Below are positions 44,469 to 63,995 of a stretch of 64,000 nt of DNA, in pieces; position 1 is the first letter of the stretch, and every line of letters begins with the position of its first letter. The notes under the pieces were generated by a model. It saw only the letters and a list, made by a program, of their open reading frames with translations, was not told the origin of the DNA and made no database searches. A program made the translations under genes and the position numbers. The DNA lies in the NCBI RefSeq assembly GCF_900106795.1, contig NZ_FNNS01000009.1, positions 81,996-145,995 of the forward strand. The letters are read 5' to 3'. Source of the DNA: Aequorivita viscosa. Lineage in GTDB: Bacteria; Bacteroidota; Bacteroidia; Flavobacteriales; Flavobacteriaceae.

Positions 44469-45860
44469 ATGAAGATTAAAAATATTTGTTGTATCGGAGC
44501 AGGTTATGTTGGAGGGCCTACGATGTCTGTTTTGGCAATTCAGAATCCAGATATTAAAATAACTGTGGTTGATATTAACGAAGAACGTATTAAAGCCTGG
44601 AATGACAAGGATTTGAATGGCCTCCCTATCTATGAGCCAGGACTAAAGGAAATTGTTCAAAAAGCAAGAGGACAAAATTTGTTTTTCAGTACTGATGTTG
44701 AAAAAGCAATTGATGAAGCTGAAATGATTTTTATATCTGTAAATACGCCGACCAAAACCTACGGTAAAGGAAAAGGAATGGCGGCTGATTTAAAATATAT
44801 AGAGCTTTGTGCCCGTCAAATTGCTAAAGTTGCAACTACTGATAAAATCGTAATAGAAAAATCGACCTTACCAGTGCGTACTGCACAAGCAATTAAAAAT
44901 ATATTAGATAATACAGGAAATGGTATTAAATTCCAGATTCTTTCTAATCCCGAGTTTTTAGCTGAAGGTACAGCTGTACAGGATTTGTTAAATCCAGACC
45001 GCGTGTTGATTGGAGGGGAGGAGAGTGATGAAGGTAAAGAAGCAATCGACGCCTTGGTAGATATTTATGCTTCTTGGATCCCTAGGGAGCGAATATTGAC
45101 TACAAATGTGTGGTCTTCAGAATTGTCAAAATTGGTTGCAAATGCCTTTTTAGCCCAGCGCGTATCTTCGATTAATGCTATTTCTGAATTATGCGAAGTA
45201 ACGGGAGCCGATGTGGACGAGGTAAGCCGCGCTATTGGAATGGATAGTCGGATAGGGCCAAAATTTTTAAAAGCGTCAGTTGGTTTCGGGGGTTCTTGTT
45301 TCCAAAAGGATATTTTAAACCTGGTATATATAGCCAAGACGTATGGGCTCAATGAAGTCGCTGATTACTGGGAGCAGGTCATTATTATGAATGACCACCA
45401 AAAGAATCGTTTTGCCGAGAATATCGTAAGCACACTCTATAACACGGTTTCAGGAAAGAAAATCACATTCTTGGGTTGGGCTTTTAAAAAAGATACAAAT
45501 GATACTAGGGAATCTGCAGCTATTTATGTTGCAGATGCATTATTGAACGAACAAGCCGAAATCTGTGTATATGATCCAAAAGTGAGTCAAGAACGCATTT
45601 ATGCAGATTTGGATTATTTAAATACAAGAAGCCCAGAAGAAAATAGAAGGTTAGTTAAGGTGGTTAAGGACCCATACGAGGCGTGCCAAGAAGCTCATGC
45701 GATCGCTATTTTGACTGAATGGGATGAATTTAAAGAATATGACTGGAAGCGGATATTCGACTCGGTAATTAAACCAGCTTTTGTTTTTGATGGACGAAAA
45801 ATTTTGAATAAAACAACTTTAAATAAAATGGGATTTGAGTATTATGCTATTGGCAGTTAA
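44469..45860 (+). CDS. ugd: UDP-glucose 6-dehydrogenase
   Basis: The enzyme oxidises UDP-glucose to UDP-glucuronate. The 463-residue product has a Rossmann motif [10 protein letters not shown] (about 9-18), [10 protein letters not shown] (about 136-145), the catalytic cysteine in [10 protein letters not shown] (about 272-281) and [14 protein letters not shown]. These segments match the longer, animal-like UGD group. It differs clearly from the upstream TviB-type dehydrogenase, so two uronic acids are probably supplied. It stands about 80 bases after cysN and 48 bases before pseB. Confidence 0.93.
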
Positions 45861-45908: not shown

Positions 45909-46925
45909 ATGAAGGATCTAGAAAATAAATCAATTCTTATTACTGGAGGCACAGGTTCTCTTGGAAAAGCTTTAACTCAACATATTTTATCCAGATACCC
46001 TAAGGTTAAAAAACTGGTTATATATTCTCGAGATGAACAAAAGCAATTTCAGATGGCTCTAGAGTATCCATCAGATAAATTTCCGCAAATACGCTTTTTA
46101 ATAGGAGATGTAAGAGATGCGGAAAGACTTAAAAGAGCTTTTAAGGATATTGACTTTGTAATTCATGCAGCTGCTATGAAGCATGTGCCAATAGCAGAGT
46201 ACAATCCAGACGAATGTGTTAAAACCAACATTCATGGAGCTCAGAATGTTATTAATGCCTGTTTAGAAACAGGGGTTAATCGAGTAGTAGCACTTTCTAC
46301 TGATAAAGCTTGTGCGCCTATTAATTTATATGGAGCGACTAAGCTAGCTTCAGACAAGCTATTTGTAGCGGCAAATAATATAACAGGATGGAATCCTATT
46401 CGTTTTTCTGTAGTTCGCTATGGGAATGTTATGGGGTCTAACGGTTCTGTTATACCGTTTTTTATAAATATGAAAAAGGAAGGGGTACTGCCTATTACAG
46501 ATTCCGAAATGACACGTTTTAATATATCTCTTCAAGGTGGTGTAGATATGGTTATGCACGCTTTAGAACATGCATGGGGAGGAGAAATATTTGTTCCCAA
46601 AATCCCGTCATATAAAATTATGGATGTAGCAGAAGCTATTGGCCCAGAGTGTGAACATAAAGTTGTAGGTATTAGACCAGGAGAGAAAGTACACGAAGAA
46701 ATGATAACTCCGTCAGATTCCTTTTACACATACGACTTAGGTAAATATTATACAATTTTACCTTCTAGGCCAAAATGGAAACTAGATGATTTTGTAAAAA
46801 CTTTTGACGCTAAAAAGGTTCCAAACGGATTTGCTTATAATTCAGGGACTAATGATGAATGGGAAACTGTGGATTCATTAAGATCTTTAATTATTGAACA
46901 TGTTGATTCATCTTTTAAAGCATAA
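45909..46925 (+). CDS. pseB: UDP-GlcNAc 4,6-dehydratase (inverting)
   Basis: PseB starts pseudaminic acid synthesis by dehydrating UDP-GlcNAc and inverting C5. The 338-residue product has the SDR motif GGTGSLGKAL (about 13-22), HAAAMKHVPIAEYNP, the STDKA segment and NLYGATK (about 139-145), matching FlaA1/PseB. PseC follows after three bases. The order pseB-pseC-pseF is a standard arrangement. Confidence 0.92.
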   Translation: MKDLENKSILITGGTGSLGKALTQHILSRYPKVKKLVIYSRDEQKQFQMALEYPSDKFPQIRFLIGDVRDAERLKRAFKDIDFVIHAAAMKHVPIAEYNPDECVKTNIHGAQNVINACLETGVNRVVALSTDKACAPINLYGATKLASDKLFVAANNITGWNPIRFSVVRYGNVMGSNGSVIPFFINMKKEGVLPITDSEMTRFNISLQGGVDMVMHALEHAWGGEIFVPKIPSYKIMDVAEAIGPECEHKVVGIRPGEKVHEEMITPSDSFYTYDLGKYYTILPSRPKWKLDDFVKTFDAKKVPNGFAYNSGTNDEWETVDSLRSLIIEHVDSSFKA

Positions 46926-46928
46926 ATA

Positions 46929-48074
46929 ATGAGAAATATACCGTACGGTAGACAGCAAATTGATCAAGATGACATTGATGCTGTAATAGAAACGCTTAAA
47001 TCTGATTTTCTTACTCAAGGTCCAAAAATTGAAGAGTTTGAAAAGGCTTTTGCTAAATATGTAGATGTGAAGTATGCTGTTGCAGTAAGCAATGCTACGG
47101 CTGGGTTGCATATAGCAAATATGGCTTTAAGCGTAAAAGAAGGCGACCGCGTAATAACCACTCCAATTACGTTCGCAGCATCAGCCAATGCTTCTCGTTA
47201 TTGTGGTGCAGAAGTTTGGTTTGCAGATATTGATCCAGATACATATTTGTTGGACATTAATGCAGTTAAAAAACTAATAGAAAGTAAGCCGAAGGGGTTT
47301 TTTAAAGGAATAATTCCTGTTGACTTTGCAGGACTTCCTGTTAACTTGGAAAGTTTCAGATCCTTGGCAGATCAACATGGGCTTTGGATAATTGAAGATG
47401 CGGCACACGCTCCAGGAGGATCTTTTATAGATTCAAAAGAGCAAGTAAATAAATGCGGTAATGGAAAGTATGCAGATTGTGCTGTTTTTTCATTTCACCC
47501 GGTAAAGCATATTGCTTGTGGTGAAGGCGGAATGGTAACTACTAATGACGAGGAAATTTATAACAATCTAAAGCTGTATCGTTCTCATGGGATAACTAAA
47601 GATAATATGTCTGAGGATCCTGGTGGATGGTATTATGAAATGCAAACTTTAGGATATAATTACCGTTTAACTGATATGCAAGCTGCTTTAGGCTTATCAC
47701 AGCTTAAGAAAAATATAGAAGGTGTTGCAAGACGAAATGAAATAGCGAATAGGTATAAAGAAGCTTTTCAAAATACTGCAATTAAATTTCAATCATTACC
47801 GGATGGAGCATTGAATGCACACCACCTCTTTGTTATCGAAGTTGAAAACAGGAAAGGATTGTATGACTCATTGAGAGCGAATAATATTTTCGCTCAAATT
47901 CATTATATCCCAGTACATACGTTACCTTATTATAAGGAAATAGGATATGGAGATGCAGATTTGTCTAAGGCCGAAAATTATTATAACCACTGCATAAGCT
48001 TACCTATGTATCCAAGTTTAACAGATGAGGAACAGAATTATGTAATTAAAAAAGTATTAGTGTTTCATGGGTAA
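46929..48074 (+). CDS. pseC: UDP-4-amino-4,6-dideoxy-AltNAc aminotransferase
   Basis: PseC is a PLP-dependent aminotransferase that puts an amino group at C4 of the 4-keto sugar made by PseB. The 381-residue product is a DegT/DnrJ/EryC1-family enzyme. It has the cofactor lysine in FSFHPVKHIACGEGG (about 189-203), EDAAHAPGG and RSHGITKD. It overlaps pseF by eight bases. The next pathway step is normally PseH N-acetylation, but no pseH follows. Confidence 0.92.
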   Translation: MRNIPYGRQQIDQDDIDAVIETLKSDFLTQGPKIEEFEKAFAKYVDVKYAVAVSNATAGLHIANMALSVKEGDRVITTPITFAASANASRYCGAEVWFADIDPDTYLLDINAVKKLIESKPKGFFKGIIPVDFAGLPVNLESFRSLADQHGLWIIEDAAHAPGGSFIDSKEQVNKCGNGKYADCAVFSFHPVKHIACGEGGMVTTNDEEIYNNLKLYRSHGITKDNMSEDPGGWYYEMQTLGYNYRLTDMQAALGLSQLKKNIEGVARRNEIANRYKEAFQNTAIKFQSLPDGALNAHHLFVIEVENRKGLYDSLRANNIFAQIHYIPVHTLPYYKEIGYGDADLSKAENYYNHCISLPMYPSLTDEEQNYVIKKVLVFHG

Positions 48075-48744
48075 TTTATGCATTATTCCAGCTAGAGGGG
48101 GAAGTAAACGTATTCCTAGAAAAAACATTAGAGATTTTCTAGGCAAGCCTATTATTGCATATTCTATAGAAACAGCATTAGAGTCAGGATTGTTTTCCGA
48201 AGTAATGGTTTCTACTGATGATGAAGAGATCGCTGAAATTGCTAAAAGATACGGGGCAAAAGTTCCTTTTTTTAGATCTAAAGAAACCGCGAATGATTTT
48301 GCAACTTTGGCAGATGTCGTTGATGAAGTTTTTCATCAATTTGAATCAAAAAAGTCTTTTTTTGAACATGCTTGTTGCATTCTCCCAACAGCTCCGTTAA
48401 TGTCTGTAGAAGATTTAAATAAAGGATATCAAATGTTATTAAAGGAAGATGTAGATTCTGTTCGACCTGTTGTTCGTTTTGCGTATCCAATTCAGCGAGC
48501 ATTTAAAATGGAAGAAAGTGGAAAGGTTTTCTTTTTATACCCTGAATTTTTAAGAACACGTTCGCAAGATTTAGAACCAGTATATCACGATGCAGGGCAG
48601 TTTTATTGGTTTAAATCTGTTAAAAAAATGCTTGGAGAAAATCGATATGCGATGGAAATAAGTGAGATGCGAGTTCAGGATATTGACACTTTTGAAGATT
48701 GGAAAGTAGCCGAGATGAAATTTGAATGGCTTAAAAATATGTGA
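48067..48744 (+). CDS. pseF: Pseudaminic acid cytidylyltransferase
   Basis: PseF activates the nonulosonic acid as CMP-Pse. The 225-residue product has the CMP-NeuAc synthetase signature IPARGGSKRIPRKN (about 6-19), a STDDEEIA segment and the PTAPLM motif. The length is that of PseF. The relation to pseB, pseC, pseG and pseI favours pseudaminic rather than sialic acid. A legionaminic assignment would need Leg-type enzymes, which I do not see. Confidence 0.88.
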   Translation: MGNLCIIPARGGSKRIPRKNIRDFLGKPIIAYSIETALESGLFSEVMVSTDDEEIAEIAKRYGAKVPFFRSKETANDFATLADVVDEVFHQFESKKSFFEHACCILPTAPLMSVEDLNKGYQMLLKEDVDSVRPVVRFAYPIQRAFKMEESGKVFFLYPEFLRTRSQDLEPVYHDAGQFYWFKSVKKMLGENRYAMEISEMRVQDIDTFEDWKVAEMKFEWLKNM

Positions 48745-48755
48745 AGTATTATACT

Positions 48756-49433
48756 ATGAAGACATACTTAATAATATCTGAAAAGGAATGGAATAAAAGT
48801 CTGATAGAAAGGTTGCAAGATGAACAAACTAATTGGTTGCTTATAGATAAAAGAGAGGACTTTACATTTGAGAATCTAAAAAAGATAAATCCTTTAAAAG
48901 TTTTTGTTCCACATTGGTCATATTATATCCCTCAAGAAATATATTCAAATTTTGAGTGTGTTGTTTTTCACGAAACTGATTTGCCATTTGGACGCGGAGG
49001 AAGTCCTATTCAAAACTTAATTGAAAGACAATTCGTAGCAACAAAAGTATCTGCTATCAAGGTTACAAAAGAGATTGATGCGGGTGATATTTATCTTAAA
49101 AAAGAAATGTCATTGTTAGGAACTGCAGAGGAGATATTTATCCGAATAAATAAAATTGTAGAGCTTATGATTCGAGAAATAGTAGAACTAGACCTGAAAC
49201 CATATCCACAAGAAGGCAGTCCAACATTTTTTAAACGTAGAAACCAATCTCAGAGTGATATAAACTCTCTTACTGAATTGGACCGAGTTTTTGATTACAT
49301 CAGAATGTTGGATGCAGAAGGTTATCCAAAAGCATTTCTTGAAACAGACAATTTGCGAATGGAGTTTACGAGAGCATCTTTGAAAGCAGATCAATCGATA
49401 TATGCAGATGTTAAAATCACTTTAAAAAAATAA
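48756..49433 (+). CDS. Formyltransferase-fold protein, probable sugar N-formyltransferase
   Basis: The 225-residue product (ATG at 48756; a GTG at 48741 is an alternative) resembles the formyltransferase family. The segment FHETDLPFGRGGSPIQNLI begins at 71, with catalytic-type His72, and Asp108 sits in EIDAGDIY. The residue matching the catalytic Asn two before His is Val70, which is unusual. The C-terminus lacks the tRNA-binding domain of Fmt, so housekeeping Met-tRNA formylation is unlikely. It lies between pseF and a PIG-L deacetylase, where a PseH acetyltransferase might be expected. I infer N-formylation (donor 10-formyl-THF) of a pseudaminic acid intermediate. Confidence 0.72.
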   Translation: MKTYLIISEKEWNKSLIERLQDEQTNWLLIDKREDFTFENLKKINPLKVFVPHWSYYIPQEIYSNFECVVFHETDLPFGRGGSPIQNLIERQFVATKVSAIKVTKEIDAGDIYLKKEMSLLGTAEEIFIRINKIVELMIREIVELDLKPYPQEGSPTFFKRRNQSQSDINSLTELDRVFDYIRMLDAEGYPKAFLETDNLRMEFTRASLKADQSIYADVKITLKK

Positions 49434-49436
49434 AAA

Positions 49437-50144
49437 ATGTTAGAGTTACTTAAGAATAAACGGATATTGGTTGTCGTGGCTCACCCTGATGATGAACTAT
49501 TAGGATTAGGGGGGACAATAAATAAATTATCCTCTGAATATAATGCAACAACTAGAGCAATAATACTTGGTGAAGGAATTACATCAAGAGCAGATGGTAG
49601 AAATCCCGAAATGTGGAAAAAGGAATTAGATACTCATAGTCAAAATATGCTTTTGGCGGCAAAAGCAGTTGGGTATGACTCTATTAAGGGGTATGATTTT
49701 CCTGATAATAGATTTGATTCAGTAGATTTACTAGATATAGTAAAGGTTATAGAAAAAGATAAAGAGGATTTTAGACCAGATGTAATTTTCACACATCATG
49801 GTGGTGACACAAATATTGATCACAGGGTAACTTTTGATGCAGTAATGCCTGCAATTAGACCGATGCAAGGAGAAATAGTTAAAATTGTTCTAACATTTGA
49901 AACTCCGTCTTCTACTGAATGGCAGGCACCGAATTATCCTAATTATTTTCGTCCAAATGTTTTTATTGAACTTTCAGAAGCGAATGTAGAAGCCAAAGTC
50001 AAAGGAATGGAACATTATGAGTTTGAAAGTAGAAAATATCCGCACCCTCGCTCACCAGAAGCTTTAAGAATAATATCCAAAAGATGGGGTGTTAATGTTG
50101 GTTACGATTATGCAGAACCATTTATGCTCATACGCTCAATATAA
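49437..50144 (+). CDS. PIG-L family deacetylase
   Basis: The 235-residue product has the zinc-site motif AHPDDE at 15-20, GGT at 26-28 and the third ligand in HHGGDTNIDHR (about 121-131). PIG-L enzymes remove acetyl groups from N-acetylated sugars such as GlcNAc-PI, bacillithiol and mycothiol precursors. It sits between the formyltransferase-like gene and pseG, three bases after the former. I infer that it deacetylates a Pse intermediate or product to give a free amine. The substrate is not proven. Confidence 0.85.
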   Translation: MLELLKNKRILVVVAHPDDELLGLGGTINKLSSEYNATTRAIILGEGITSRADGRNPEMWKKELDTHSQNMLLAAKAVGYDSIKGYDFPDNRFDSVDLLDIVKVIEKDKEDFRPDVIFTHHGGDTNIDHRVTFDAVMPAIRPMQGEIVKIVLTFETPSSTEWQAPNYPNYFRPNVFIELSEANVEAKVKGMEHYEFESRKYPHPRSPEALRIISKRWGVNVGYDYAEPFMLIRSI

Positions 50145-50156
50145 ATACTTCGATTT

Positions 50157-51203
50157 ATGAAAAAAATATTTTTCAGAATTGACGCTGGAAAAATATTTGG
50201 TTTGGGCCATCTATCAAGATGTCTTTGTTTAGCTAATGAGTTTTCAAATGGATTTGAACTAGGTTTTTTTATAAAAACAGATAATCCTCTTACTATAATC
50301 CAATTCATTGAAGATAAGTTAAAAGAAGTTATACCTCGGTCTCTATATTTTTTTGAGTTGGATATTCAGCCAACTCAGGAATTAAAATTTCTAATTAATG
50401 AAGTGAAAAAACAAAACGCTTTTCTGATTATTGATCATTATACAGCTGATGAAAAGTATCAAAAAGAGCTATATGAAAATAATGTTAAATGGCTTCAATT
50501 TGATTCACACGCTAAAGTAAAATTGTATTCTGACTTTGTTTTACATGGAAGCCCAAATGCTACTGAAGAGCTCTACAGACCATTGATAGTAAAAAACACC
50601 AAAATGCTTTTTGGTCCAAAATATGCTATAGTGGGAGAACAATTTAGGAGAGGAAGAGAGAACGTTGAGGTCAGAAAAAGTGTAAACGAAATATTCATTA
50701 GTTTTGGTGGAGGAAATGATAAAGGCGCCCTTTTAAAGTGTATATCAGATTTGGACTCCTCATTTTTGAAAAATATATCTCTGAACATAGTTACTTCCGA
50801 ATTAAATCCATCAATAAATGAAATTAAAGGTTGGGTATCAAAATCAAAAAATGTAACGTTATTTATAAACACAAATAAGGTTTTTGAGATTATGGCTCGT
50901 TGTGATTTAGCAATCCTTACCCCTGGGACATTAAGTTATGAAGCATCATGTATGGGACTACCAATGTTGTTGATTTCTACTGCAGATAACCAAGATATTA
51001 ATGCGAGTGGGTGGGAAAGAATTGGCGCGGCTCGATATCTTGGAAAAATAGAATATTTGGATAAAAACATTTTTAATGCCTCAATACGAAATGTTATTGA
51101 AAATACAGATTTATTGAATTCAATGTCTGAATGCTCATTCGATGCAGTTGATGGGAAAGGGGCGGAAAGAACAGCAAAAATTATAAAATCACGCATAGTA
51201 TGA
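50157..51203 (+). CDS. pseG: UDP-2,4-diacylamido-trideoxy-hexose hydrolase PseG
   Basis: PseG removes UDP from the acylated sugar nucleotide with inversion. The 348-residue product has the N-terminal motif GLGHLSRCL with catalytic-type His18, the central SFGGGNDKG segment (about 182-190) and a GT-B-like C-terminal domain. It is somewhat longer than Campylobacter PseG (about 274 residues), but no GNAT domain is visible in the extra length. So it is not a PseG-PseH fusion. It overlaps the ATP-grasp gene by four bases. Confidence 0.85.
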   Translation: MKKIFFRIDAGKIFGLGHLSRCLCLANEFSNGFELGFFIKTDNPLTIIQFIEDKLKEVIPRSLYFFELDIQPTQELKFLINEVKKQNAFLIIDHYTADEKYQKELYENNVKWLQFDSHAKVKLYSDFVLHGSPNATEELYRPLIVKNTKMLFGPKYAIVGEQFRRGRENVEVRKSVNEIFISFGGGNDKGALLKCISDLDSSFLKNISLNIVTSELNPSINEIKGWVSKSKNVTLFINTNKVFEIMARCDLAILTPGTLSYEASCMGLPMLLISTADNQDINASGWERIGAARYLGKIEYLDKNIFNASIRNVIENTDLLNSMSECSFDAVDGKGAERTAKIIKSRIV

Positions 51204-52318
51204 AAAGAATTCTTATTCTTGGCACAAATGCCACACAGTCAGATATCATAAATTACCTAAACGAAACAGGTTGGGAAACTCATGTTTGTGGTTACAAAAA
51301 AGAGGGTCCAGGATGCGATATTGCTGATCATTTTCATTTAGTAGATACAATAGATATTGAAGCAGTAAAAAAATTAGCTCAGGATATAAAAGCAGATGTT
51401 GTCTATTCTGTTTCTTCTGATTCAGCTATTACTTCAGCAACAAAGGTTTCTGAATTATTAGGAATGCCACACCTGTTGGATGGTAAGATGATTGACTTGT
51501 TCAACAACAAACACGAGTTCCGTGACTTCTTAAATAAAAATGAAATAGGATTTACTAAATATACAAAAGTCAACAAGGAACACAAAAATTCTGTTGATTG
51601 GGATATATTTCCTTGTGTAGTTAAGCCTACGAATTCGCAAGGACAAAGAGGGGTGCAGTTGGTAAACGACAAGGAATCACTTTTAGGAGCTCTTGAGTTG
51701 GCTTTTGAGTCTTCAAAAGAAGGAGAAGCCATAATAGAAGAATATTTAGATGGAGCTGAGTTTTCATCAAATATTATTGTGCAAGACGGAAAGATTATCC
51801 TAAATGAATTCAGCGATAGAATTGTTTTTGGAACGGAACATTTTGGATTGCCAAAAGGACATAGAATTCCAATTACCTATATCAATGAAGAACAATTAGC
51901 TATTGCAAAATCTAACGTAGAGAAAATCATTAAAACTCTTAATATCCAGAATGCAGTACTTTACATTCAGATGAAGCTTAAGGAAGATCAACCTAGGGTG
52001 ATTGAAATTGCACCTCGATTGGATGGTTGTCATATTTGGAGATTGATAAAACAAGTAAGAGGAGTAGATTTGAGAGAACTTGCTATTAAATGCTTACTAG
52101 GTGAAAAAATAGATATGTCTAATTATAAATCTATTGTTGATAAACATGGGGTTCTAGAATTTTATCATTTACCCACAACTGAAAAGTTTGACATGACTAA
52201 GCTAAAGTTAATTCCTGATGTGAGTTTTGCTGAATACCGATATACTGACGGGGAATGTATAGTTCCTATTAATGGACGATTAGAAGTAGTGGGTTATTGT
52301 ATTTATGACGAAAATTGA
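51200..52318 (+). CDS. ATP-grasp ligase in the pseudaminic acid cluster
   Basis: The 372-residue product has an N-terminal Rossmann-like preATP-grasp domain (ILILGTNATQSD). The ATP-grasp lobes follow, with VKPTNSQGQRGVQL (about 137-150), the IIEEYLDGAEFSS segment and the metal-binding VIEIAPRLDGC near 271-281. A C-terminal domain of about 80 residues follows. ATP-grasp enzymes form an amide or related bond between an acyl phosphate and a nucleophile. The gene overlaps pseG by four bases and is followed by an SDR gene, then pseI. I infer ligation of an amino acid or other acid to an amino group of the sugar. The substrates are unknown. Confidence 0.8.
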   Translation: MKRILILGTNATQSDIINYLNETGWETHVCGYKKEGPGCDIADHFHLVDTIDIEAVKKLAQDIKADVVYSVSSDSAITSATKVSELLGMPHLLDGKMIDLFNNKHEFRDFLNKNEIGFTKYTKVNKEHKNSVDWDIFPCVVKPTNSQGQRGVQLVNDKESLLGALELAFESSKEGEAIIEEYLDGAEFSSNIIVQDGKIILNEFSDRIVFGTEHFGLPKGHRIPITYINEEQLAIAKSNVEKIIKTLNIQNAVLYIQMKLKEDQPRVIEIAPRLDGCHIWRLIKQVRGVDLRELAIKCLLGEKIDMSNYKSIVDKHGVLEFYHLPTTEKFDMTKLKLIPDVSFAEYRYTDGECIVPINGRLEVVGYCIYDEN

Positions 52319-52321
52319 TTT

Positions 52322-53224
52322 ATGAGAATTTTAATTACAGGAGCTACCGGGTTTTTAGGCAGAAACCTTATTCGCTTGCTTTTGAAAGAAAATCATACTG
52401 TTACCGCTATAGGAAGATCTATGGAGAAGCTGAAAGATTGTTTCCCAGATGACACTATTTATAAGCGGGTAACAGATTATTCTGTTGAAAGCCTGACAAA
52501 TTTGCTTGAAAATCAAGAAGTAGTAATTCATTTGGCTTCACAGTTGATGCAGCGCGATACAGATCCTTTAAAAATCTCCAGTTTTTCATCCAACTTGCAA
52601 ATAGTAGAAAATCTTGTTATAGCCTGCAACAAAAACGAAACACCAAAGTTTATCAATACATCAACAATAAGTGTTTATCCACTTATGAAGGATTTGCAAG
52701 AAACGCAAGCCCCAGCGCCGTCAACTATATACGGAGTAAGTAAAGCTAATATAGATATTTACCTAAGTTACATACAGAAGAAAATTTCGACTAGAATCAT
52801 TTCTTTGAGATTGGCGAGGTTATATGGGTATGGAGAGAGAGATGGCCTTATGTTTACAGATTTTGTGAATAAGGCGTGTAATAAAGAAACATTGACTATT
52901 AATGGACAGGGAAAATCAACCATAGAATATATTTATATAGAAGATGCGATTGAAGCGATTTCAAATGTTGCAAAAAATCATGAAATCGAAGGTGCTTTCA
53001 ACGTAGGAACAGGAACGTCGTATTCTGTAAAAGTGATTGCTGAAACTGTTAATCAGGTTTTTAAGAATGAAGGAAATGTAGCATATTTGGTAGATAAACC
53101 CGATGGAATTGTGGGGAGTGAGATGGATGTTTCTAAAATTAAAGCTAACTTAAATTGGTCCGTACAGTGGGGCTTACTTCAATCAGTTCAAGACATTAAA
53201 AGAAATATAGAAAATGAAGAATAA
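52322..53224 (+). CDS. NAD-dependent epimerase/dehydratase (SDR) paired with the ATP-grasp gene
   Basis: The 300-residue product is an extended SDR with the motif GATGFLGRN (about 7-15), HLASQ near 70, a Ser in NTSTISVYP and the catalytic pair in IYGVSKAN (about 139-146). The C-terminal part shows the usual FNVGTG segment. It starts three bases after the ATP-grasp gene, and the pseI start lies inside its 3' end. Its reaction is unknown: epimerisation, dehydration or reduction of a sugar or sugar-nucleotide. The same two activities are fused in the gene at 59259. Confidence 0.82.
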   Translation: MRILITGATGFLGRNLIRLLLKENHTVTAIGRSMEKLKDCFPDDTIYKRVTDYSVESLTNLLENQEVVIHLASQLMQRDTDPLKISSFSSNLQIVENLVIACNKNETPKFINTSTISVYPLMKDLQETQAPAPSTIYGVSKANIDIYLSYIQKKISTRIISLRLARLYGYGERDGLMFTDFVNKACNKETLTINGQGKSTIEYIYIEDAIEAISNVAKNHEIEGAFNVGTGTSYSVKVIAETVNQVFKNEGNVAYLVDKPDGIVGSEMDVSKIKANLNWSVQWGLLQSVQDIKRNIENEE

Positions 53225-54212
53225 TAGAACATTTATAATAGCAGAACTTTCTGCTAATCATAATAACGATTTAGACTTGGCATTGCGCACAGTAAAGGCA
53301 GCTGCCGAATCTGGAGCAGACGCTATTAAAGTACAAACTTACACGGCTGATTCTTTGGCTATTGATGTTGATAACGAGTTTTTTGGTCCTAAGAAAGAAG
53401 GATTGTGGAAAGGAATACGACCTTATGATTTATATACAGAAGCGTCTTTGCCTTATGATTGGCACAAACCAATTCAGAAAGCAGCTAAGGAGCATGGGCT
53501 TATTTTCTTTAGCTCTCCATTTGATTTAGAAGGTGTAGACTTTTTAGAAACATTAAATGTTCCGCTATATAAAATCGCCTCTTTTGAAATTACTGATATT
53601 CCTTTAATTGAATATACGGCGTCAAAAGGGAAACCGATGATTATATCTACTGGTGTTGCTAGTGAAGAGGATATAAATTTGGCAGTTGAAACTTGTAGAA
53701 TGGCGGGGAATTACGATATCACTTTGCTAAAATGCACGTCTCAATATCCTGCTAAAATTGAGGATGCTAACCTATCGACAATAACTGATATGCAACAGCG
53801 ATTCAACGTAAAAATTGGGCTTTCAGATCATACAATGGGTGATATTGTTCCTACAACGGCAGTAGCGTTAGGTGCTGTTGTTATTGAGAAGCACTTTATA
53901 TTAAATCGTAATTTGGATGGGCCAGATTCCAGCTTTTCAATGGAGCCAAAAGAGTTTAAGGAAATGGTTGATAAAGTGCGTTTAGTAGAAGCCTCTTTGG
54001 GAGAAGTCTCCTATAAAATAACGGAAAAAGATATTTATAAAAGAAGATCTTTGTTTGCGGTTAAAGACATCAAAAAGGGCGAAGTGTTTACCAAAGAGAA
54101 TGTACGGTCTGTTAGACCAGGCGTTGGATTACACACTAAGTTTTATAAAACTTTACTTGGCGAAAGATCAAATAGGGAGTATAGAAAAGGAGATCCCCTT
54201 AAGAAGAACTAG
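53214..54212 (+). CDS. pseI: Pseudaminic acid synthase
   Basis: PseI condenses the 6-deoxy-altrose derivative with phosphoenolpyruvate to form the nine-carbon acid. The 332-residue product has the NeuB-type barrel (IAELSANHNND, about 8-18; VIEKHFILNRNLDGPDSS). A C-terminal SAF/antifreeze-like domain follows (RRSLFAVKDIKKGEVF to the end, about 277-332). The segment order matches PseI/NeuB. The gene overlaps the preceding SDR by 11 bases, so tailoring and synthesis genes are coupled. Confidence 0.92.
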   Translation: MKNNRTFIIAELSANHNNDLDLALRTVKAAAESGADAIKVQTYTADSLAIDVDNEFFGPKKEGLWKGIRPYDLYTEASLPYDWHKPIQKAAKEHGLIFFSSPFDLEGVDFLETLNVPLYKIASFEITDIPLIEYTASKGKPMIISTGVASEEDINLAVETCRMAGNYDITLLKCTSQYPAKIEDANLSTITDMQQRFNVKIGLSDHTMGDIVPTTAVALGAVVIEKHFILNRNLDGPDSSFSMEPKEFKEMVDKVRLVEASLGEVSYKITEKDIYKRRSLFAVKDIKKGEVFTKENVRSVRPGVGLHTKFYKTLLGERSNREYRKGDPLKKN

Positions 54213-55445: not shown

Positions 55446-56412
55446 ATATTTTTTACTTAGTTTCTTCATCATTTCGTCTTGTGTTAGTCAATCTAAAATA
55501 AAACTAGATAAAACAAGTTTGATTTGGAATAAAGCCGAGCATAGTGCCTTTACAACATTAGTTAGCCATAACGGCTATTTATATTGTGCATTTAGAGAGG
55601 GAACTTCTCATCACAGTTATGATGGTGGAATAAGAATTATTAAATCAAAAGATACTCAGAATTGGGAAGATGTTGCGTTTATTAGCATACCACAAGAAGA
55701 TTTGAGAGATCCAAAGTTTATCATAAATAATAATGATTTAAACTTGATTTTTGTTTCGAGAACTGAAACAGAGCATTTTTCATATTCATATTCATATTCG
55801 ACTGAAAATGGAGAAGAGTGGTCTCAAGAAAATAGAGAATTAGGGACATGGAGATGGAATGCCACAGAGTTCAATGGAAAAATCTATAGTGTGGGATATT
55901 CGTCTAATGATAAACAGGGAAGGATTTATTCAACAAAAACGGGTGATTCCTGGCAACCTATTAAGAATAATTTTTTTCCAGATATAGCTTCTTATCCAAA
56001 TGAAACAGCGTTATTCTTTTCATCAGATAGAACTTCCTATGCCTTTGTTAGACAAGACAAGAAATCAAAATCCGCGCTAATAGGTACATCCAGTCCTCCA
56101 TACCAAGATTGGACTTGGAAAGATCTAAATACAAGAATCGGTAGTCCTTCAGGTATACTTTTAAATGATAGTTTAATATTAGCCTGTGTAAGACTCTATT
56201 TTCCTGTAAGAACATCTCTAGTTTGGATAGATCCAATAAAAGGCACTTTAAAAGAAGATACTGTCTTGCCGTCTGGAGGTGATACAGGTTATGCAAGTAT
56301 TGTGAGCTTTAAAAATAAATATTATGTCTCATATCATTCTTCAAAAAATGCTGAGAGAAAGTCTTCAATATATTTAACTGAATTTACAATAAATGTTGAT
56401 GGGGAAAATTAA
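55438..56412 (+). CDS. Sialidase-like beta-propeller lipoprotein
   Basis: The 324-residue product has a lipoprotein signal with Cys15 (lipobox IISSC). An FREG segment near residue 50 resembles the arginine motif of sialidases. Asp-box-like turns are seen at SKDTQNW, STENGEEW and STKTGDSW. The overall pattern suggests a six-bladed propeller anchored in a membrane. It overlaps the preceding gene by eight bases and the Wzx gene by 14-20 bases, so it is part of the operon. I infer an enzyme or binding protein that acts on nonulosonic acid in the polysaccharide. Activity is not established. Confidence 0.7.
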   Translation: MYKYFLLSFFIISSCVSQSKIKLDKTSLIWNKAEHSAFTTLVSHNGYLYCAFREGTSHHSYDGGIRIIKSKDTQNWEDVAFISIPQEDLRDPKFIINNNDLNLIFVSRTETEHFSYSYSYSTENGEEWSQENRELGTWRWNATEFNGKIYSVGYSSNDKQGRIYSTKTGDSWQPIKNNFFPDIASYPNETALFFSSDRTSYAFVRQDKKSKSALIGTSSPPYQDWTWKDLNTRIGSPSGILLNDSLILACVRLYFPVRTSLVWIDPIKGTLKEDTVLPSGGDTGYASIVSFKNKYYVSYHSSKNAERKSSIYLTEFTINVDGEN

Positions 56413-57861: not shown

Positions 57862-59262
57862 ATGAAGAAGGCAGTTTATAGGGTAAAGGAGTTGGCAAAC
57901 AAGGAGTGCAAACTGGGGTTTTATGAAGGAAAAATCTTAGGGATTCCTGCATGGCGAGTACTTAGGTTTAAAACGAGAACAAATTATTTTAAAAAGAACA
58001 CTGAATTTAATAATAAGAGTAATAAAAAAGAAGATGTTAGTATTGCGATTTTAGTAAAGAGTTACTTTAATTCCTTTTTAGCATTAATCAAGCTACTTTT
58101 AAGTTCTAAACGTTGTAGCAATGTTATTTATGCTTTTCCGCGGTTGGCAAGATTGGATGATACTTATCTTGATAAGTTTACCGATCCTATGATAGAATAC
58201 ACAGATGTTAAAAATGATTTTTTGATATTTCAACGTAGCTTGGGCGGTAGTCATAGTAAGCCTAGGAAGCATGACAACAACACAATTGAGACCGATTTTA
58301 TAGACATAACAGTAAAGATATTAGGGGTTGTTTTTTTTCCAATATTTTTATTGTGTTACGTTAAAACAATCTTGGGAATCTACAAAAAAGCTAAAGAGCT
58401 TTTTGGGGTAGGTTTTCTTTTTGTCATAAAATCTAGTATTGATTTGGGGGAGTTTTATACAAAGCATTTTTTTGTGAAAATATTATTACGAAAGCTACAA
58501 GCGAAAAATGTGTTTGTGGTTAATAGAGGTGCTTTTATTCCCGTTATAGTTTCAGCTCGTAAAGTAAATGCAAGAGTTTATGAAATGCAGCACGGGGTAA
58601 CTTTGTCTGATACAATTTTATATGCAGGCGAATACCATCCGTTGGCGGATCCAGATTATTTTTTAGCATTTGGAAAAAAATGGATAGCATCACAATTTTA
58701 TATACCCTTAGAGAAAATCGTTAACGTTGGGTGGGGTTATAAACGAATGGTAAATAACAGTTTGCAGAAGCCAGTCTTCTCAGATAAATGTATTCTAGTT
58801 ATTTCTTCACCCAACTGTACGTTCAAACTTTTTGATGTTGTTTTAAAGCTGGCTGAGGTGTTTTCTGAGTATGAATTTCATCTGCGATTACATCCTCAAG
58901 AAGGGTATAAAGAAGCACAATATAAAGCCATAGCTGAAATTGATAATATTAAAATGGATGATCGTTCTGTCGATTCTGCAGTTGTTGTAAATCGGTATAA
59001 ATATCTAATAGGTGAGAATTCATCGGTTTTATACGAAGCGCTTTGTCTAAATAAAAGAGTTGCCCGTATAGAAATGGGAGGCCTCGAGATAAAAGATCAA
59101 AATAATAGAGCTACAACTGGGTTTTTCTATGTGAAAAGCATAGAAGATTTTAAAGAGTTTTTAAACTTGGAAGGGGAATTAAATAGTCTGCCTGAACAAG
59201 GTGTTTATGATGATTTTGATGAGACAGTTGTAAACAAGTTAATAAAAAATTGTAAATTATGA
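57862..59262 (+). CDS. Candidate GT-B-like glycosyltransferase (possible nonulosonic acid transferase)
   Basis: The 466-residue product has a divergent N-terminal region, one hydrophobic stretch near 155-175 and a C-terminal half resembling polysaccharide transferases. Seen there are EMQHGVT near 248-254, FAFGKKW-type spacing (YFLAFGKKW), RLHPQE near 348-353 and ENSSVLYEAL near 389-398. The HP and SS motifs recall sialyltransferase and CDP-glycerol-transferase-like families. I do not recognise a specific family. It is almost the only transferase candidate besides the PGTs, so it may attach pseudaminic acid. It overlaps the next gene by four bases. Confidence 0.55.
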   Translation: MKKAVYRVKELANKECKLGFYEGKILGIPAWRVLRFKTRTNYFKKNTEFNNKSNKKEDVSIAILVKSYFNSFLALIKLLLSSKRCSNVIYAFPRLARLDDTYLDKFTDPMIEYTDVKNDFLIFQRSLGGSHSKPRKHDNNTIETDFIDITVKILGVVFFPIFLLCYVKTILGIYKKAKELFGVGFLFVIKSSIDLGEFYTKHFFVKILLRKLQAKNVFVVNRGAFIPVIVSARKVNARVYEMQHGVTLSDTILYAGEYHPLADPDYFLAFGKKWIASQFYIPLEKIVNVGWGYKRMVNNSLQKPVFSDKCILVISSPNCTFKLFDVVLKLAEVFSEYEFHLRLHPQEGYKEAQYKAIAEIDNIKMDDRSVDSAVVVNRYKYLIGENSSVLYEALCLNKRVARIEMGGLEIKDQNNRATTGFFYVKSIEDFKEFLNLEGELNSLPEQGVYDDFDETVVNKLIKNCKL

Positions 59263-61214
59263 TAACAGTATTAATTACCTGTGCCGGTTCTGGTGTTGGT
59301 CAATCGGTGATAGATTCTTTAAATTTAGTGAAAGGCTATAAACTTATTGGCTGTGACGGAAAGCGAAATGTATACGCACATGCATACTGTGATAAGTTTT
59401 TAACGGTTCCAAGCATATATTCTGACGATTATATAGATCATTTAATAGCTCTGTGTAAAAAAGAAAATATAGATATAGTAGTCCCTGGCCACGATTACGA
59501 GTTATTATTGTTTTCAGAAAACTTTAAGTCATTTGAAGAAAATGGCATCGAGGTTGTCGTTTCTGAACCAACAATTATTGCTGCAAGTAGAGATAAGCAA
59601 AAGTGGTTTGATTATTTTAGTAAATACGATTGTAAAATAGTACCTACATATTCTGTAAAAACTTTCAAACAAAATCCGGATTCTTCAATTTTTCCAGCTA
59701 TTGTAAAGCCCGTGGGAGGATCTGCTTCTCAAGGAATTTTAATACTCAATAGTGTTGACGAAATTGAGCAGGCAAACGACGAAGATATAATCCAGCCGTA
59801 CCTATTTCCAACGGAAGATGATAAAAATTACTTAGCGATTAAAAAAGCGGTTGCAAAGAGTAATCTAGTACAACTTTCGGAAATATCAATCCAACTTATT
59901 TTCTCTAAAAAATCTAAACTGTCAGGTATCTTTATATCTAAAAATACTTTGAAAGATGGTGTCCCTATATTTGTTAATACGATTAAGCCAGAGGAGTTCG
60001 AATATCTAGATGAAATTATGAAATTTGTTCCTGTATGCGAAGAAAATGGTGTTAAAGGTCCTGTTAATATTCAAGGTAGAGTAACAGAAAAGGGAATCTT
60101 CTTTTTTGAAATGAATATGCGATTTACGGGGATTACTGGGAACAGAGCGCTTTTAGGGTTTAATGAAGTTGACTTTCTTGTCAAAGATTTTATGGGTGAA
60201 CCAGCTAGAATCGAAAATTACTCTATAAATAAAGTTGGTGTAAGACAAGTAGCTTGCACAACGATTCCTAAAGAAACTCTTTCAGCTAAAAAAACTTATA
60301 CCTTATTAGGTGCTGGTGGGTTTGTAGGTCAGCACTTTATAGAAGATCTCTTGGAAAAGAACGATGATTTTGAGCGTATCAATTTAATTTGTCGAGATAG
60401 TTCTTACCGGAAGTATAATGAGAGATTTTCCGATAATAGAATTGTGGTTTATAAAAGCAGTGATTCTTTTTTAGAAACAATATATTGTCAAACTGATGTT
60501 TTTGTAAACTTTTCAAGTGCTCTTGCATATTGTCCTGATGAAGAAATCTACGAGGCTATTACCTTTCAATATCAACAAAGTCTTAAAATGGCTCGTGCAA
60601 ACATTCCTGTTATAATAAATGTATCCTCTCAATCCGTATATAGCCAGTCGAGTAATGAAGAAAAAACAGAAATTGCACCAGTAAAGCTCAAAACCGCTTA
60701 TGCTCATCAGAAGTTCATCTGTGAACAATTTTTTAATTCCTTGGGAACTAATACACCAGTGTCAAAAGTGATTTCCTTAAGATTTACTAGAATTTTGGAC
60801 GGGAAGGATAATAATAAGATAAATGGATTTTTTGGAAAGGTGCCAGAAGTTTTGCTCAAAGGTGGTAACATAAAAATTGATAACCCATCAAACAATACGA
60901 ACTTAATAAGTATAAAAGATGTTGTTAGCGCCATTCATTTTGTAATTGAAAACTCTAGTTCGAAGGCTTTTCCTTTGATGATGAATGTTGGGGGTGAAAA
61001 CATTTCGTTGGGAGCGTATTGTAATAAAGTTATTTCTAGTGTCAAGAAAGATGAAACAAAAGGTGGTTTAGAAATTGTTGAAAACGTTGAGGTTTTAGCA
61101 AGTTCTATGGTCAATATTGATAAGTTTAAGTCATACGGTTGGCAGCCCAAATATACCGTAGACAATTTGATTGAAGATTTTGTGGCAAATATAAAACAGT
61201 CGCTATATGTATAA
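59259..61214 (+). CDS. Fused ATP-grasp and NAD-dependent epimerase (SDR) protein
   Basis: The 651-residue product has two modules. Residues 1 to about 335 form an ATP-grasp unit (preATP domain [24 protein letters not shown] near 150; [15 protein letters not shown] near 286-300), similar to CarB-like ligases. Residues from about 345 to 651 form an extended SDR unit ([22 protein letters not shown]; the YAHQK pair; MMNVGGE). Each half resembles one of the two adjacent separate genes at 51200-53224. It overlaps its neighbours by four and eight bases. I infer two consecutive steps on the same sugar. The substrates are unknown. Confidence 0.82.
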
Positions 61215-61827
61215 AAGGTTCATTAAAAGAGGACTGGATTTTTTGACATCGTCATTAGTTCTACTTTTTTTATCTCCTTTACTTGGCTTAATCGCTTTGT
61301 TATTGGCAATTGCCCAAAAAGGAAATGTGTTCTTCATTCAAGAACGGCCAGGTAAAAATGCTAATATTTTTAAAATCATTAAGTTTAAAACCATGACTGA
61401 TGATATAGATGCTGAAGGCCGGCTTTTACCAGATGAAAAGCGACTGACGAATATTGGTAAATTTGTGCGATCAACCTCTATAGATGAACTGCCTCAGTTG
61501 ATAAACGTAGTGAAAGGAGATATGGCAATCGTTGGTCCTAGACCATTGCTGGTGAAATACCTTCCGCTTTATAACGACTTTCAGTCAAAAAGGCACGATG
61601 TGCGACCAGGAATCACAGGTTGGGCGCAAGTAAATGGAAGAAACGCTATTTCGTGGGAAAAGAAATTTGAACTGGACGTGTGGTACACTCAAAACCTATC
61701 CTTCTTATTAGATTTAAAAATAATTCTTTTAACAATTAAAAAAGTATTCTGGAGAGAAGGAATAAGTGCCGCAACTTCTGCTACTATGGAGACTTTTACC
61801 GGAAACAAGAAAAATGAAACTACCTAA
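61207..61827 (+). CDS. PglC-like phosphoglycosyl transferase
   Basis: The enzyme should transfer a phospho-sugar from a UDP-sugar to undecaprenyl phosphate to begin repeat-unit assembly. The 206-residue product is the small monotopic type. It has an N-terminal re-entrant helix (about 10-37), [20 protein letters not shown] (about 46-65) and the catalytic Asp-Glu pair in SIDELPQL (about 97-104), then VGPRPL and [13 protein letters not shown]. It overlaps the fused gene by eight bases and the sulfotransferase by 14. Confidence 0.9.
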
Positions 61828-62731
61828 TTTTACAATCGCAGGCTTCGCTAAATGCGGAACCACTTCGCTATACCATTATTTGGAAGAGCATCCAGAAGTG
61901 TTTTTACCGAAAAGAAAAGAGTTACACTATTTCACATATGATAAAGTTTTAAGGCATAAAGATAAGGGGCCTAAGGATGCAGAGATGCACAAATTTCATA
62001 CAAGAACTTTTAACGAGTATAAGGCTCAATATACTACAGTAAAAACTGAAAAAGCAATAGGTGATATCTCACCGACTTATGCGCTCTATGATGATGGATT
62101 AGTGTATTTAAAAAACACATTGGGAGCAGATACAAAAATGATTGTGGTGGTTCGAGACCCTATAAAAAGAGCATACTCAAATTATTTACATTTAATTAGA
62201 GAAAATAGGGAAACAGAAAGTTTTTATGACGCTTTGCAACTAGAGTCTGAGCGACAAGAAAAAGGATACTCTAATTTTTGGTACTATAAGTTTATTTCGT
62301 CTTATTATCAGCATATTAAAAGATTAAAAGGTCAGTTTGAAGATGTCCTAGTTGTTACCTTTGAAGAGTTTATGCAAAACCCAGAAAAGGGCATTAAAGA
62401 AATTTATAGCTTTTTGGAAGTTGATGACACCTTTATTCCAGAAAATATTGGAACACGCTTTAATCCTGGAGGGTTGTATAAGAAGAATATCTTAACTTCC
62501 TTCATTTTTGAGCGTAGCAAATTAAACAGCTTTGTGAAAAGCATTATACCATTAAATTCAAGGGTTAAGAAAATAGCGCATAGTGTTACAAATAAATTTA
62601 AAACAGAAACACCTCCTGTGGATAAAAAAAGTGAGGAATTTTTAGTAGATTACTTTAAAAGCGATGTATTGAAATTAAAAAGTGAGTTTGGTGTAAAAAC
62701 GGAACATTGGAACAAAGGGTTTCAGTTATAA
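61814..62731 (+). CDS. Sulfotransferase (PAPS-dependent, polysaccharide type)
   Basis: I choose the ATG at 61814. The longer frame from 61766 runs inside the upstream gene. The 305-residue product has the PAPS 5'-phosphosulfate loop near its start ([14 protein letters not shown], about 9-22) and the 3'-phosphate motif [15 protein letters not shown] (about 114-128). This is the heparan-sulfate-type family. With cysC, cysD, cysN and cysQ in the same locus, the sulfuryl donor is made and its by-product removed. It is likely to sulfate a sugar of the polysaccharide. Confidence 0.88.
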
Positions 62732-62833: not shown

Positions 62834-63439
62834 TTGACAAAACAGCAGCGTTTATTAAAGAGAAGCTTCGATGTAATCATCGCCTTTGTGGCTTGTGTGG
62901 TTTTCTTGCCATTGATTATTGTCGGTTACTTGCTAGCAATGATAAGTGCTAAGGCTTCTGGAATATATACTTCATATCGAGTTGGTGAAAATGGGAAACT
63001 GTTTAAAATTTATAAACTCCGAAGTATGTATGTTGGTACTGAGGACCTCAATACATTAACAACTTCAAATGATCCACGAATTACAAAAATAGGAAGATGG
63101 CTTCGGAAATTTAAAATTGATGAACTTCCACAACTTTGGAACGTATTAAAGGGGAATATGAGTCTAGTCGGTCCACGTCCCGATGTAAAAGGATATGCGG
63201 ATGAACTAAAAGGTGAAGACCGTATCATACTAACGGTTAAACCTGGGATTACAGGTTTAGCTACCATAATGTTTAAAAACGAAGAAGATATGCTTGCCCA
63301 ACAGGAAGACCCTTATAAATACAATCGCAATGTCATATGGCCTAAAAAAGTTCAACTTAATAAAAAATACGTCAGGAATTATTCTTTCAAATTAGACATA
63401 TTAATTCTATTACGCACTTTTTTTTCCAAGGTTGAATAA
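62834..63439 (+). CDS. Second PglC-like phosphoglycosyl transferase, TTG start
   Basis: The 201-residue product has an N-terminal hydrophobic helix (about 12-36), [18 protein letters not shown] (about 49-66), the Asp-Glu pair in [11 protein letters not shown] and VGPRPDV. The tail differs from the first copy ([13 protein letters not shown]). No ATG or GTG is available between the in-frame TAG at 62795-62797 and the hydrophobic helix, so the TTG at 62834 is the only workable start. It lies 102 bases after the sulfotransferase gene. The second copy may start a different glycan or act on another sugar nucleotide. Confidence 0.85.
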
Positions 63440-63728: not shown

Positions 63729-63995
63729 ATGAGACGAAGTAAATTTTCACCACAACAGATTGCAAAGATTTTAAAAGAGTTCGACAATGGAAAGAGTGTC
63801 GACCAGATCAGTCGTGAGCATGGGGTCAGCCCCGCCACTTTCTATAAGTGGCGTTCTAGATATGCTGGAATGAACTCCAAGGAGCTCAAGCGCCTCAAGG
63901 AGCTAGAGGAAGAGAATCGCAAGCTCAAGCAGATGTATGCCACTCTGGCCCTTGACCACCAGATGGCCAAGGAGATCATCGAAAAAAAGCTTTAA
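63729..63995 (+). CDS. IS3-family transposase OrfA
   Basis: The 88-residue product has the pattern of IS407-type OrfA. It has an N-terminal helix-turn-helix (KFSPQQIAKILKEF, then ISREHGVSPATFYKWRSRY, about 5-45) and a leucine-zipper-like helix (LKRLKELEEENRKLKQMYAT, about 53-72). OrfA binds the IS ends and is normally combined with OrfB by a -1 frameshift or made separately. The stop codon is at 63993-63995, five bases before the window ends, so the frameshift region cannot be examined. Confidence 0.9.
   Translation: MRRSKFSPQQIAKILKEFDNGKSVDQISREHGVSPATFYKWRSRYAGMNSKELKRLKELEEENRKLKQMYATLALDHQMAKEIIEKKL

Follow-up and report, generated by a model that had tools for sequence, protein, structure and literature searches.

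The window analysed here, a stretch of 64,000 nucleotides from Aequorivita viscosa, carries an ATP-grasp module and an SDR module twice, once as two separate genes and once joined in a single protein, which raises the question of whether the two are copies of one pair and what the joined protein makes. As the original prediction stated, positions 59259 to 61214 of the forward strand form one 651-codon open reading frame that joins the two modules. The catalytic residues are intact in both halves. The ATP-grasp half (residues 1-339; 59259..60275, forward strand) contains K150, a Gly/Ser loop at residues 153-159 and the motif E284-x-N286-x-R288, the first and last of which we take to be the catalytic lysine and the metal/phosphate residues; having the fold together with these residues, it is a predicted amide ligase that would join a carboxylate to an amine using ATP. 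The second half (residues 340-651; 60276..61214, forward strand) belongs to the extended SDRs by its match to PF01370 (Epimerase; 47.1 bits against a gathering cut-off of 20.9) and has a Rossmann glycine motif (G351..G357), S457 and Y481-xxx-K485. G351, G357, S457, Y481 and K485 are present in all 27 sequences of alignment A1, and R379, which ends the second strand, in 25 of them; on the rule, assumed here from general knowledge, that such a residue at this place goes with NADP(H), the predicted cofactor is NADP(H).

The separate pair belongs to a pseudaminic-acid operon (45909..54212, forward strand) that reads PseB, PseC, PseF, a formyltransferase-like protein, a PIG-L protein, PseG, the unfused ATP-grasp (51200..52318, forward strand), the unfused SDR (52322..53224, forward strand; PF01370, 124.9 bits) and PseI, so that the pair (51200-53224) is placed between PseG and PseI; the five Pse proteins score above their NCBIfam cut-offs. 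When the modules were compared pairwise, the ATP-grasp halves were 22.5% identical over 236 amino acids (E 4e-5) and the SDR halves 23.3% over 317 amino acids (E 2e-5), as expected for distant relatives and not for copies. With this 22-23% identity half by half, and with the split pair placed inside the operon of a different pathway, little speaks for two copies of one pair, and we rejected that idea: the fused gene is a different branch. The low identity weakens the paired-function argument in part; for the fusion itself, successive action of the two halves on a single activated sugar is the likeliest reading. At E <= 1e-40 the split ATP-grasp had no match in any of the 298 other genomes, its own being the sole match of 299; in L007 a 31% identical relative, truncated where the fetched stretch begins, lies directly before PseI, with no SDR.

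It had further been proposed that the fused ATP-grasp half is the more CarB-like of the two. This holds in name only, the half matching the PRK12767 models, which are called 'carbamoyl phosphate synthase-like', and 2pn1. The fused protein gave no match at E <= 0.01 to the CPSase large-subunit models (TIGR01369, PF02786) or to E. coli-type CarB chains. The split ATP-grasp does match both models (TIGR01369, E 1e-17; PF02786, E 1e-8), and in the PDB it finds CarB chains at E 1e-9. On these model and PDB matches we rejected the view that the fused half is specially CarB-like.

Upstream, the fused gene overlaps by 4 bases the gene of a 466-aa predicted GT-B glycosyltransferase (57862..59262, forward strand), which is GT-B-like at modest confidence, has weak family matches and gave a best E of 0.099 in a PDB sequence search; possibly, and speculatively, it is a nonulosonic-acid transferase. 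Downstream, and overlapping by 8 bases, lies a Bac_transf sugar-phosphate transferase that is PglC-like by gene position (PGT1; 61207..61827, forward strand; PF02397, 208.6 bits), followed by a sulfotransferase read from GTG (61766..62731, forward strand; PF13469, 55.7 bits), whose listed start, 62 bases inside PGT1, may be too early, and by a second Bac_transf transferase (PGT2; 62834..63439, forward strand; PF02397, 189.9 bits), a 46% identical homologue of which adjoins an aminotransferase in locus L008. An IS-type transposase open reading frame (HTH_Tnp_1; 63729..63995, forward strand; PF01527, 84 bits) stands at the end of the contig (C49), which ends with the window, so the locus is broken off there in this assembly. 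A counterpart of the L008 aminotransferase was looked for in the same genome and found on contig C30 (64%; 7 DegT-type matches in all, the rest at <=37%). It scores 374.8 bits with the LegC model TIGR04181, below its cut-off of 420, and is next to a PglF-like dehydratase of 653 aa, some 2 kb from the contig end; no exact sequence overlap was found between the ends of C49 and C30. The genome hence holds PglF-, PglE/LegC- and PglC-like homologues, the dehydratase and aminotransferase being on C30 and not on the window contig, with specificities predicted from their families.

A search for other fusions, as had been suggested, found relatives, and 12 loci (own included) had usable context of >5 kb. 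In 9 of the 12, a PGT1-type transferase is at most one gene away from the fused gene, and 8 of the 12 contain an aminotransferase, either L008's own or one with 46-66% identity to it; five such aminotransferases that were tested gave 330-399 bits with TIGR04181 (cut-off 420). The exact order transferase, fused gene, aminotransferase is found in three loci (L004, L005, L007). Three of the 12 depart from the pattern: L016, which is 29% identical and has no recognised polysaccharide genes around it; L036, which is 31% identical and has near it a NeuD-type protein of full length (156.3 bits) and a DesI-like aminotransferase; and L011, which is on a MAG contig rich in frameshifts. On a 3.6-kb contig with an N-terminally cut copy (L009), the 2.1 kb after the gene contain neither a transferase nor an aminotransferase.

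These neighbourhoods bear on the original idea that CMP-Pse could be the substrate, under which the fused enzyme would tailor a nonulosonic acid of the pseudaminic type and not a bacillosamine-type sugar. A PseI/NeuB-like synthase is present in 7 of the 12 loci, own included, and a homologue of the 466-aa glycosyltransferase in 8, as that reading would have it. At L003, however, no such synthase was seen among the annotated open reading frames (covering some 19.5 kb before the fused gene and 10 kb after it) while PGT1 and the aminotransferase are kept, and the nearest neighbours of the fused gene are first-sugar genes, among which it can fill the slot of PglD. A nonulosonic acid as main substrate was rejected on L003, and we consider this reading quite improbable; acid ligation plus an SDR acting on a UDP-sugar is what is retained of the suggested substrates.

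For the PglD slot we took as controls the 30 loci with the highest-scoring aminotransferase matches, in genomes that, by handle number, were among those without the fusion; 226 of 299 genomes have the aminotransferase, and since it is common in the family its presence says little. PglD/NeuD stands between transferase and aminotransferase in 11 of the 30 controls, 10 reading PGT1-PglD/NeuD-aminotransferase and one PGT1-NeuD-PGT2-aminotransferase, and all 10 slot acetyltransferases tested are above the TIGR03570 cut-off. The fused gene of L004, L005 and L007 is exactly in this slot. A lone PRK12767-type ATP-grasp is beside the aminotransferase in three controls (two tested with NCBIfam). The other 16 are off-pattern, with other neighbours, contig ends (L068, L072, L081) or an unresolved open reading frame (L064, where open reading frame picking missed the aminotransferase that tblastn does find); L060, where hexapeptide proteins (161 and 134 aa) lie close by, was left out of the slot count. 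TIGR03570 did not exceed its cut-off of 160.8 in any of six fusion genomes (best 77.8), an absence that is weak by itself because PglD is not general: only 4 of 14 well-known reference genomes pass the cut-off, and 19 of the 30 controls have no slot PglD. At equal thresholds L036 is the only fusion locus with a full-length NeuD-type protein. A hexapeptide acyltransferase of 137-140 aa (28-40% identical to the C-terminal half of PglD) stands between the fused gene and PGT1 in L006, L008 and L035 and, judged by this likeness, could do a PglD-like job there; none is beside the fused gene in L003, L004, L005, L010 or the own locus.

Our main reading, to which we give a probability of roughly 45%, is that the fused protein replaces PglD in a bacillosamine-type pathway, its ligase half coupling a small acid to the 4-amine of UDP-QuiNAc4N (UDP-2-acetamido-4-amino-2,4,6-trideoxyglucose) and its SDR half reducing that acid. 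The PglF-like dehydratase and the LegC/PglE-type aminotransferase, both encoded in the genome, would by their families supply UDP-QuiNAc4N. The ligase half, to go by its fold and residues, would convert the acid to an acyl phosphate that is attacked by the sugar amine; the acid is probably 2-oxoglutarate, joined through its C5 carboxylate. While the acyl chain is carried on the UDP-sugar, its keto group would next be reduced by the SDR half, probably at the expense of NADPH, to give a 2-hydroxyacyl sugar, and the adjacent PglC-like transferase would pass the sugar phosphate to a lipid carrier. The new hydroxyl may, speculatively, be the attachment point of a nonulosonic acid.

A different chemistry would have the ATP-grasp half make a uronic acid amide, the sugar carboxylate being attacked by ammonia or an amino acid, with epimerisation of that sugar by the SDR half. 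UDP-sugar dehydrogenase genes do occur in the window (44469-45860) and at L003, there roughly 7-13 kb before the fused gene, but those of the window have no homologue in the fetched stretches of L004, L005, L006, L007, L008 and L035, and a LegC/PglE aminotransferase gives an amine, not a carboxylate, which makes this account very improbable.

The fused family is conserved and its distribution is patchy. It was found in one of 295 genomes of the class (the own genome), in three of 397 of the family (own, one cut copy and one distant), and in 3 of 146 genomes around G687, 2 of 344 around G688 and 1 of 81 around G686; Labilibaculum filiforme, Marinifilum breve and a Polaribacter are among its other bearers. 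The ligase residues are intact in all 121 fused-family sequences and the SDR motif in 112; the nine with a decayed SDR motif (P0113 and P0116 among them) all fall within one 13-member clade (support 0.96), and the survival of the ligase half alone in these nine means that the two steps are separable. Separable steps would also suit an enzyme with the same ligase role on UDP-QuiNAc4N that uses a ready-made amino or hydroxy acid, its SDR half acting on the sugar ring by C4 epimerisation or keto reduction, and NDP-sugar epimerases (6dnt, 3m2p, 3ehe) are indeed the nearest matches to the SDR half, by sequence as well as by fold. R379, however, aligns with an acidic residue in 6dnt and points to NADP(H) and a net reduction, and to our knowledge the PglF-PglE-PglC pathway has no ring redox step left unassigned; we regard this alternative as unlikely.

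Carried further, the reading with an acid-reducing SDR would make this a previously unassigned ligase-reductase class that replaces PglD and builds a hydroxy-acid arm on UDP-bacillosamine, the hydroxyl made by the reductase half bearing a nonulosonic acid so that the acid is a backbone link, and not a decoration, in a sugar-amide-hydroxyacid-sugar chain; we regard this extension as rather doubtful. If the main reading is true, a free acid ligated at the cost of ATP could stand in for acetyl-CoA in the bacillosamine pathway, and the fusion would serve as a sequence marker for predicting which surface polysaccharides of Bacteroidota have acylated amino sugars; the decayed-reductase clade is a natural test of step order. 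Among the papers listed from the open-licence PMC literature, none was evidently on the fused enzyme, judged by titles and abstract starts, a scope that does not show absence from print.

Among known systems, PRK12767 (NF009402) is matched by the fused protein at 176.9 bits, below the curated cut-off of 218, and its stand-alone members here have 323-336 aa; 2pn1, the PDB match, is likewise a stand-alone protein, of 331 aa, titled by its depositors carbamoylphosphate synthase large subunit (split gene). PylC (4ffl) is an amide ligase, with which the fused protein shares a PylC-like N-terminal domain (PF21360) and the ATP-grasp fold (Foldseek); the fused protein has different partners and scores 26.6 bits with TIGR03909, against a cut-off of 248.3. 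ArnA (1z7e) functions in a UDP-4-amino-sugar pathway and has a formyltransferase as its N-terminal half; an acyl-donating half fused to an extended SDR in one such pathway is the likeness (about 760 columns aligned in Foldseek, TM-score 0.39), whereas profile searches gave the fused protein no formyltransferase match. PglD/NeuD (TIGR03570), with the same slot in three loci between a PglC-like transferase and a PglE/LegC-type aminotransferase, has the same predicted acceptor, the 4-amine of UDP-QuiNAc4N, and an unrelated fold; the fused enzyme has no TIGR03570 match, is an analogue by gene position only, has an extra reductase-like half and is predicted to use ATP and a free acid in place of acetyl-CoA.

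A product of the expected kind is on record for Tenacibaculum (Flexibacter) maritimum, and the main reading, if true, would assign an enzyme to the 2-hydroxyglutaryl amide residue of this O-antigen, whose structure was published in 2003. The O-antigen contains 2-acetamido-3-O-acetyl-4-[(S)-2-hydroxyglutar-5-ylamido]-2,4,6-trideoxyglucose beside an 8-amino nonulosonic acid (PMC3210612); the review writes the hydroxy acid as (S) when naming the residue and as R in its running text, and its relevant passages name no enzyme for the residue. The species has a 53% identical homologue of the fused protein (P0016), a likeness at the level of the species, the strain of the structure and that of the gene not being matched. 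At that level, the 4-N-(2-hydroxyglutaryl) trideoxy-amino-glucose described in these passages fits the proposed acylase and ketoreductase.

The original prediction took the 651-residue fused protein (59259-61214, + strand; SDR half from residue 340) and the unfused ATP-grasp (51200-52318) and SDR (52322-53224) proteins as one pair present in a split and a fused copy. This equation was not upheld, since the corresponding halves are just 22.5% (ATP-grasp) and 23.3% (SDR) identical and the split pair is located between PseG and PseI in a pseudaminic-acid operon (45909-54212), whose PseB, PseC, PseF, PseG, and PseI proteins each score above the NCBIfam cut-offs. That the fused ATP-grasp half is the more CarB-like of the two was true in name only (PRK12767 “carbamoyl phosphate synthase-like” models; 2pn1), whereas CPSase large-subunit models and CarB chains were matched by the split ATP-grasp alone. 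No PseH acetyltransferase match was obtained for any of the nine ORFs in the pseudaminic-acid operon; besides the split pair the operon encodes a formyltransferase-like protein and a PIG-L deacetylase, a gene content suggesting that the nonulosonic acid may be N-acylated in an unusual way.

Fourteen distinct loci with a fused-type gene were fetched. The genomic context was counted in 12 of these (the A. viscosa locus, L003-L008, L010, L011, L016, L035, and L036), omitting two loci on 3.4-3.6-kb contigs, L009 (= L017) and L012; no transferase or aminotransferase gene was found within the 2.1 kb downstream in L009. A gene for a PglC-like sugar-phosphate transferase of the PGT1 type (61207-61827 in the window) was at most one gene away from the fused gene in nine loci, a homolog of the 466-aa glycosyltransferase (57862-59262) was present in eight, and a PseI/NeuB-like synthase in seven, the A. 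viscosa locus being included in all three counts. A LegC/PglE-type aminotransferase was found in the same locus in 8/12 cases (on the other strand in L010; that of A. viscosa is on another contig), and a PglF-like dehydratase of 625-647 aa in three (L005, L008, and L010; that of A. viscosa is on contig C30). A hexapeptide acyltransferase of 137-142 aa occurred in four loci (L006, L007, L008, and L035); in L006, L008, and L035 it lies between the fused gene and the PGT1-type gene and may be a sugar-acting enzyme in its own right; it is missing beside the fused gene in the A. viscosa locus, L003, L004, L005, and L010. The loci without transferase or aminotransferase were the frameshift-rich L011 and the distant L016 (29% identical) and L036 (31%). 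The Erythrobacter locus L010 (fused protein 34% identical) combines the fused gene with those for the transferase, the dehydratase, and the aminotransferase (46%). The Myroides odoratus locus L003 retains transferase and aminotransferase, and the ORFs annotated around the fused gene, from about 19.5 kb upstream to 10 kb downstream, include no nonulosonate synthase.

A weak BNR-repeat match was observed in a protein inside the O-antigen locus (55438-56412), and a 470-aa protein near the fused gene in L008 also has weak BNR matches. Genes for an APS kinase (PF01583), a CysD-like protein with a PAPS_reduct domain, and a CysN-like GTPase are located upstream (41554-44389), and a sulfotransferase gene (61766-62731) adjoins the fused-gene region; given these sulfation-type genes, the polysaccharide may be sulfated.

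As a control, loci around the LegC/PglE-type aminotransferase were selected from family genomes (present in 226 of 299 at 1e-90), using the best-scoring 30 matches. By handle number the control genomes fall within the 397-genome family sample, in which the fusion occurs in three other genomes only. The order transferase-NeuD/PglD-aminotransferase was found in 10 of the 30 controls, all ten scoring above the cut-off of 160.8 bits for TIGR03570, the PglD/NeuD acetyltransferase model (180.7-235.2 bits), and one further control had a second transferase in between. The fused gene occupies exactly this place in L004, L005, and L007. Using the control proteins as baits and the controls' own threshold, a full-length NeuD-type protein was detected among the fusion loci in L036 only; the other matches were hexapeptide proteins of 137-177 aa aligning with the NeuD-type C-terminal half and one weak match inside the L010 dehydratase. 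None of six fusion genomes exceeded the TIGR03570 cut-off (best match 77.8 bits, covering a portion of the model); as background, it was exceeded in just 4 of 14 well-known genomes. Three further controls carry a stand-alone PRK12767-type ATP-grasp gene beside the LegC/PglE-type aminotransferase (L053:258-1268, L067:3012-3983, and L076:3015-3989), that of L053 lying immediately upstream of the aminotransferase gene in the same orientation; a fragment upstream in L053 appeared PLP-enzyme-like by eye only. In the other 16 controls the neighbors differed or the locus was truncated or unresolved; the PglD slot is thus frequent but not universal.

In the Campylobacter pathway PglF and PglE/LegC yield UDP-QuiNAc4N, PglD acetylates the 4-amine, and PglC loads the sugar onto the lipid carrier. 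Based on gene order, a bacillosamine-type rather than a pseudaminic branch is well supported for the fused protein. Its ATP-grasp ligase, in the slot of PglD, would acylate the 4-amine of UDP-QuiNAc4N with a free acid, and we consider this amide ligation fairly probable. R379 of the SDR half aligns with an acidic residue of the NAD-type epimerase 6dnt and is arginine in 25 of 27 sequences; by general rule this residue presumably indicates NADP(H), which points to a reduction. A keto-acid, e.g., 2-oxoglutarate, ligated via C5 and reduced at C2 would yield a sugar bearing a 4-(2-hydroxyglutar-5-yl)amido group. That the SDR half reduces the acyl chain is a more tentative proposal, and use of the new hydroxyl as linkage point is speculative. 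To the complete sequence, ligation to the UDP-QuiNAc4N amine followed by acyl-chain reduction, we assign a probability of roughly 45%.

The fusion and its conserved residues are directly observed. The protein search returned 276 homologs, and the 120 listed include proteins from Tenacibaculum maritimum, T. finnmarkense, T. ovolyticum, Polaribacter, Riemerella, Empedobacter, Myroides, Labilibaculum, and Marinifilum; the distribution is patchy (1/295 genomes of the class sample and 3/397 of the family sample, A. viscosa counted in both). Mean identity in a 27-sequence alignment (351 pairs) was 59.7% for the ATP-grasp halves and 38.5% for the SDR halves. In the window protein and the 120 listed homologs, K150, E284, N286, and R288 are intact in 121/121 sequences, and G351, G357, S/T457, Y481, and K485 are retained in 112. 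The SDR motif is gone in the other nine, seven of which are just 496-538 aa long; the ligase is therefore the constant part, whereas loss of the reductase half does occur. In the tree of the ATP-grasp half all nine fall inside one 13-member clade (support 0.96) as four groups interspersed with four intact members. Clade members include P0109, P0111, P0113, P0115, P0116, and P0118-P0121; the ATP-grasp half is perfect across the clade, the SDR half is eroded or truncated in some members, and the clade is a natural separation of the two functions.

From synteny with L008 the aminotransferase and dehydratase genes are expected past the second transferase gene, PGT2 (62834-63439), beyond the end of the window, where the contig terminates in an IS-type transposase ORF (63729-63995). 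Both genes were found adjacent to each other on C30 of the same genome, about 2 kb from the contig end and reading away from it, the aminotransferase at 64% to that of L008 (top of seven matches) and the dehydratase at 40%. The locus, or else its assembly, is probably interrupted by an insertion element; as the two contig ends have no exact overlap, we infer the continuity of the locus.

The T. maritimum homolog of the fused protein among the matches listed is P0016 (53%). According to the review PMC3210612, the O-antigen of this species consists of a disaccharide that combines 2-acetamido-3-O-acetyl-4-[(S)-2-hydroxyglutar-5-ylamido]-2,4,6-trideoxyglucose with an 8-amino nonulosonic acid; the configuration of the hydroxyglutaric acid is given there once as (S) and once as R. 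The linkage is described in that review as involving hydroxyglutaric acid, so its hydroxyl would be a glycosylation site. The same sugar is written QuiNAc3Ac4NAcyl with 2-hydroxyglutaric acid in a second review, PMC4052302; PMC9853564 and PMC13414609, as far as excerpted, address T. maritimum serotypes and O-antigen cluster typing, not the enzymes of the cluster. The fused gene occurs together with a NeuB-like synthase in L004 and L008. The aminotransferase encoded at 2149-3456 in L008 (PRK06209, 236 bits, under the cut-off of 486) would fit an 8-amino nonulosonate; for the 3-O-acetyl group, the hexapeptide acyltransferase would be a fitting enzyme. The T. maritimum residue as described in the two reviews, a 4-(2-hydroxyglutar-5-yl)amido sugar, matches the product proposed for the fused enzyme.
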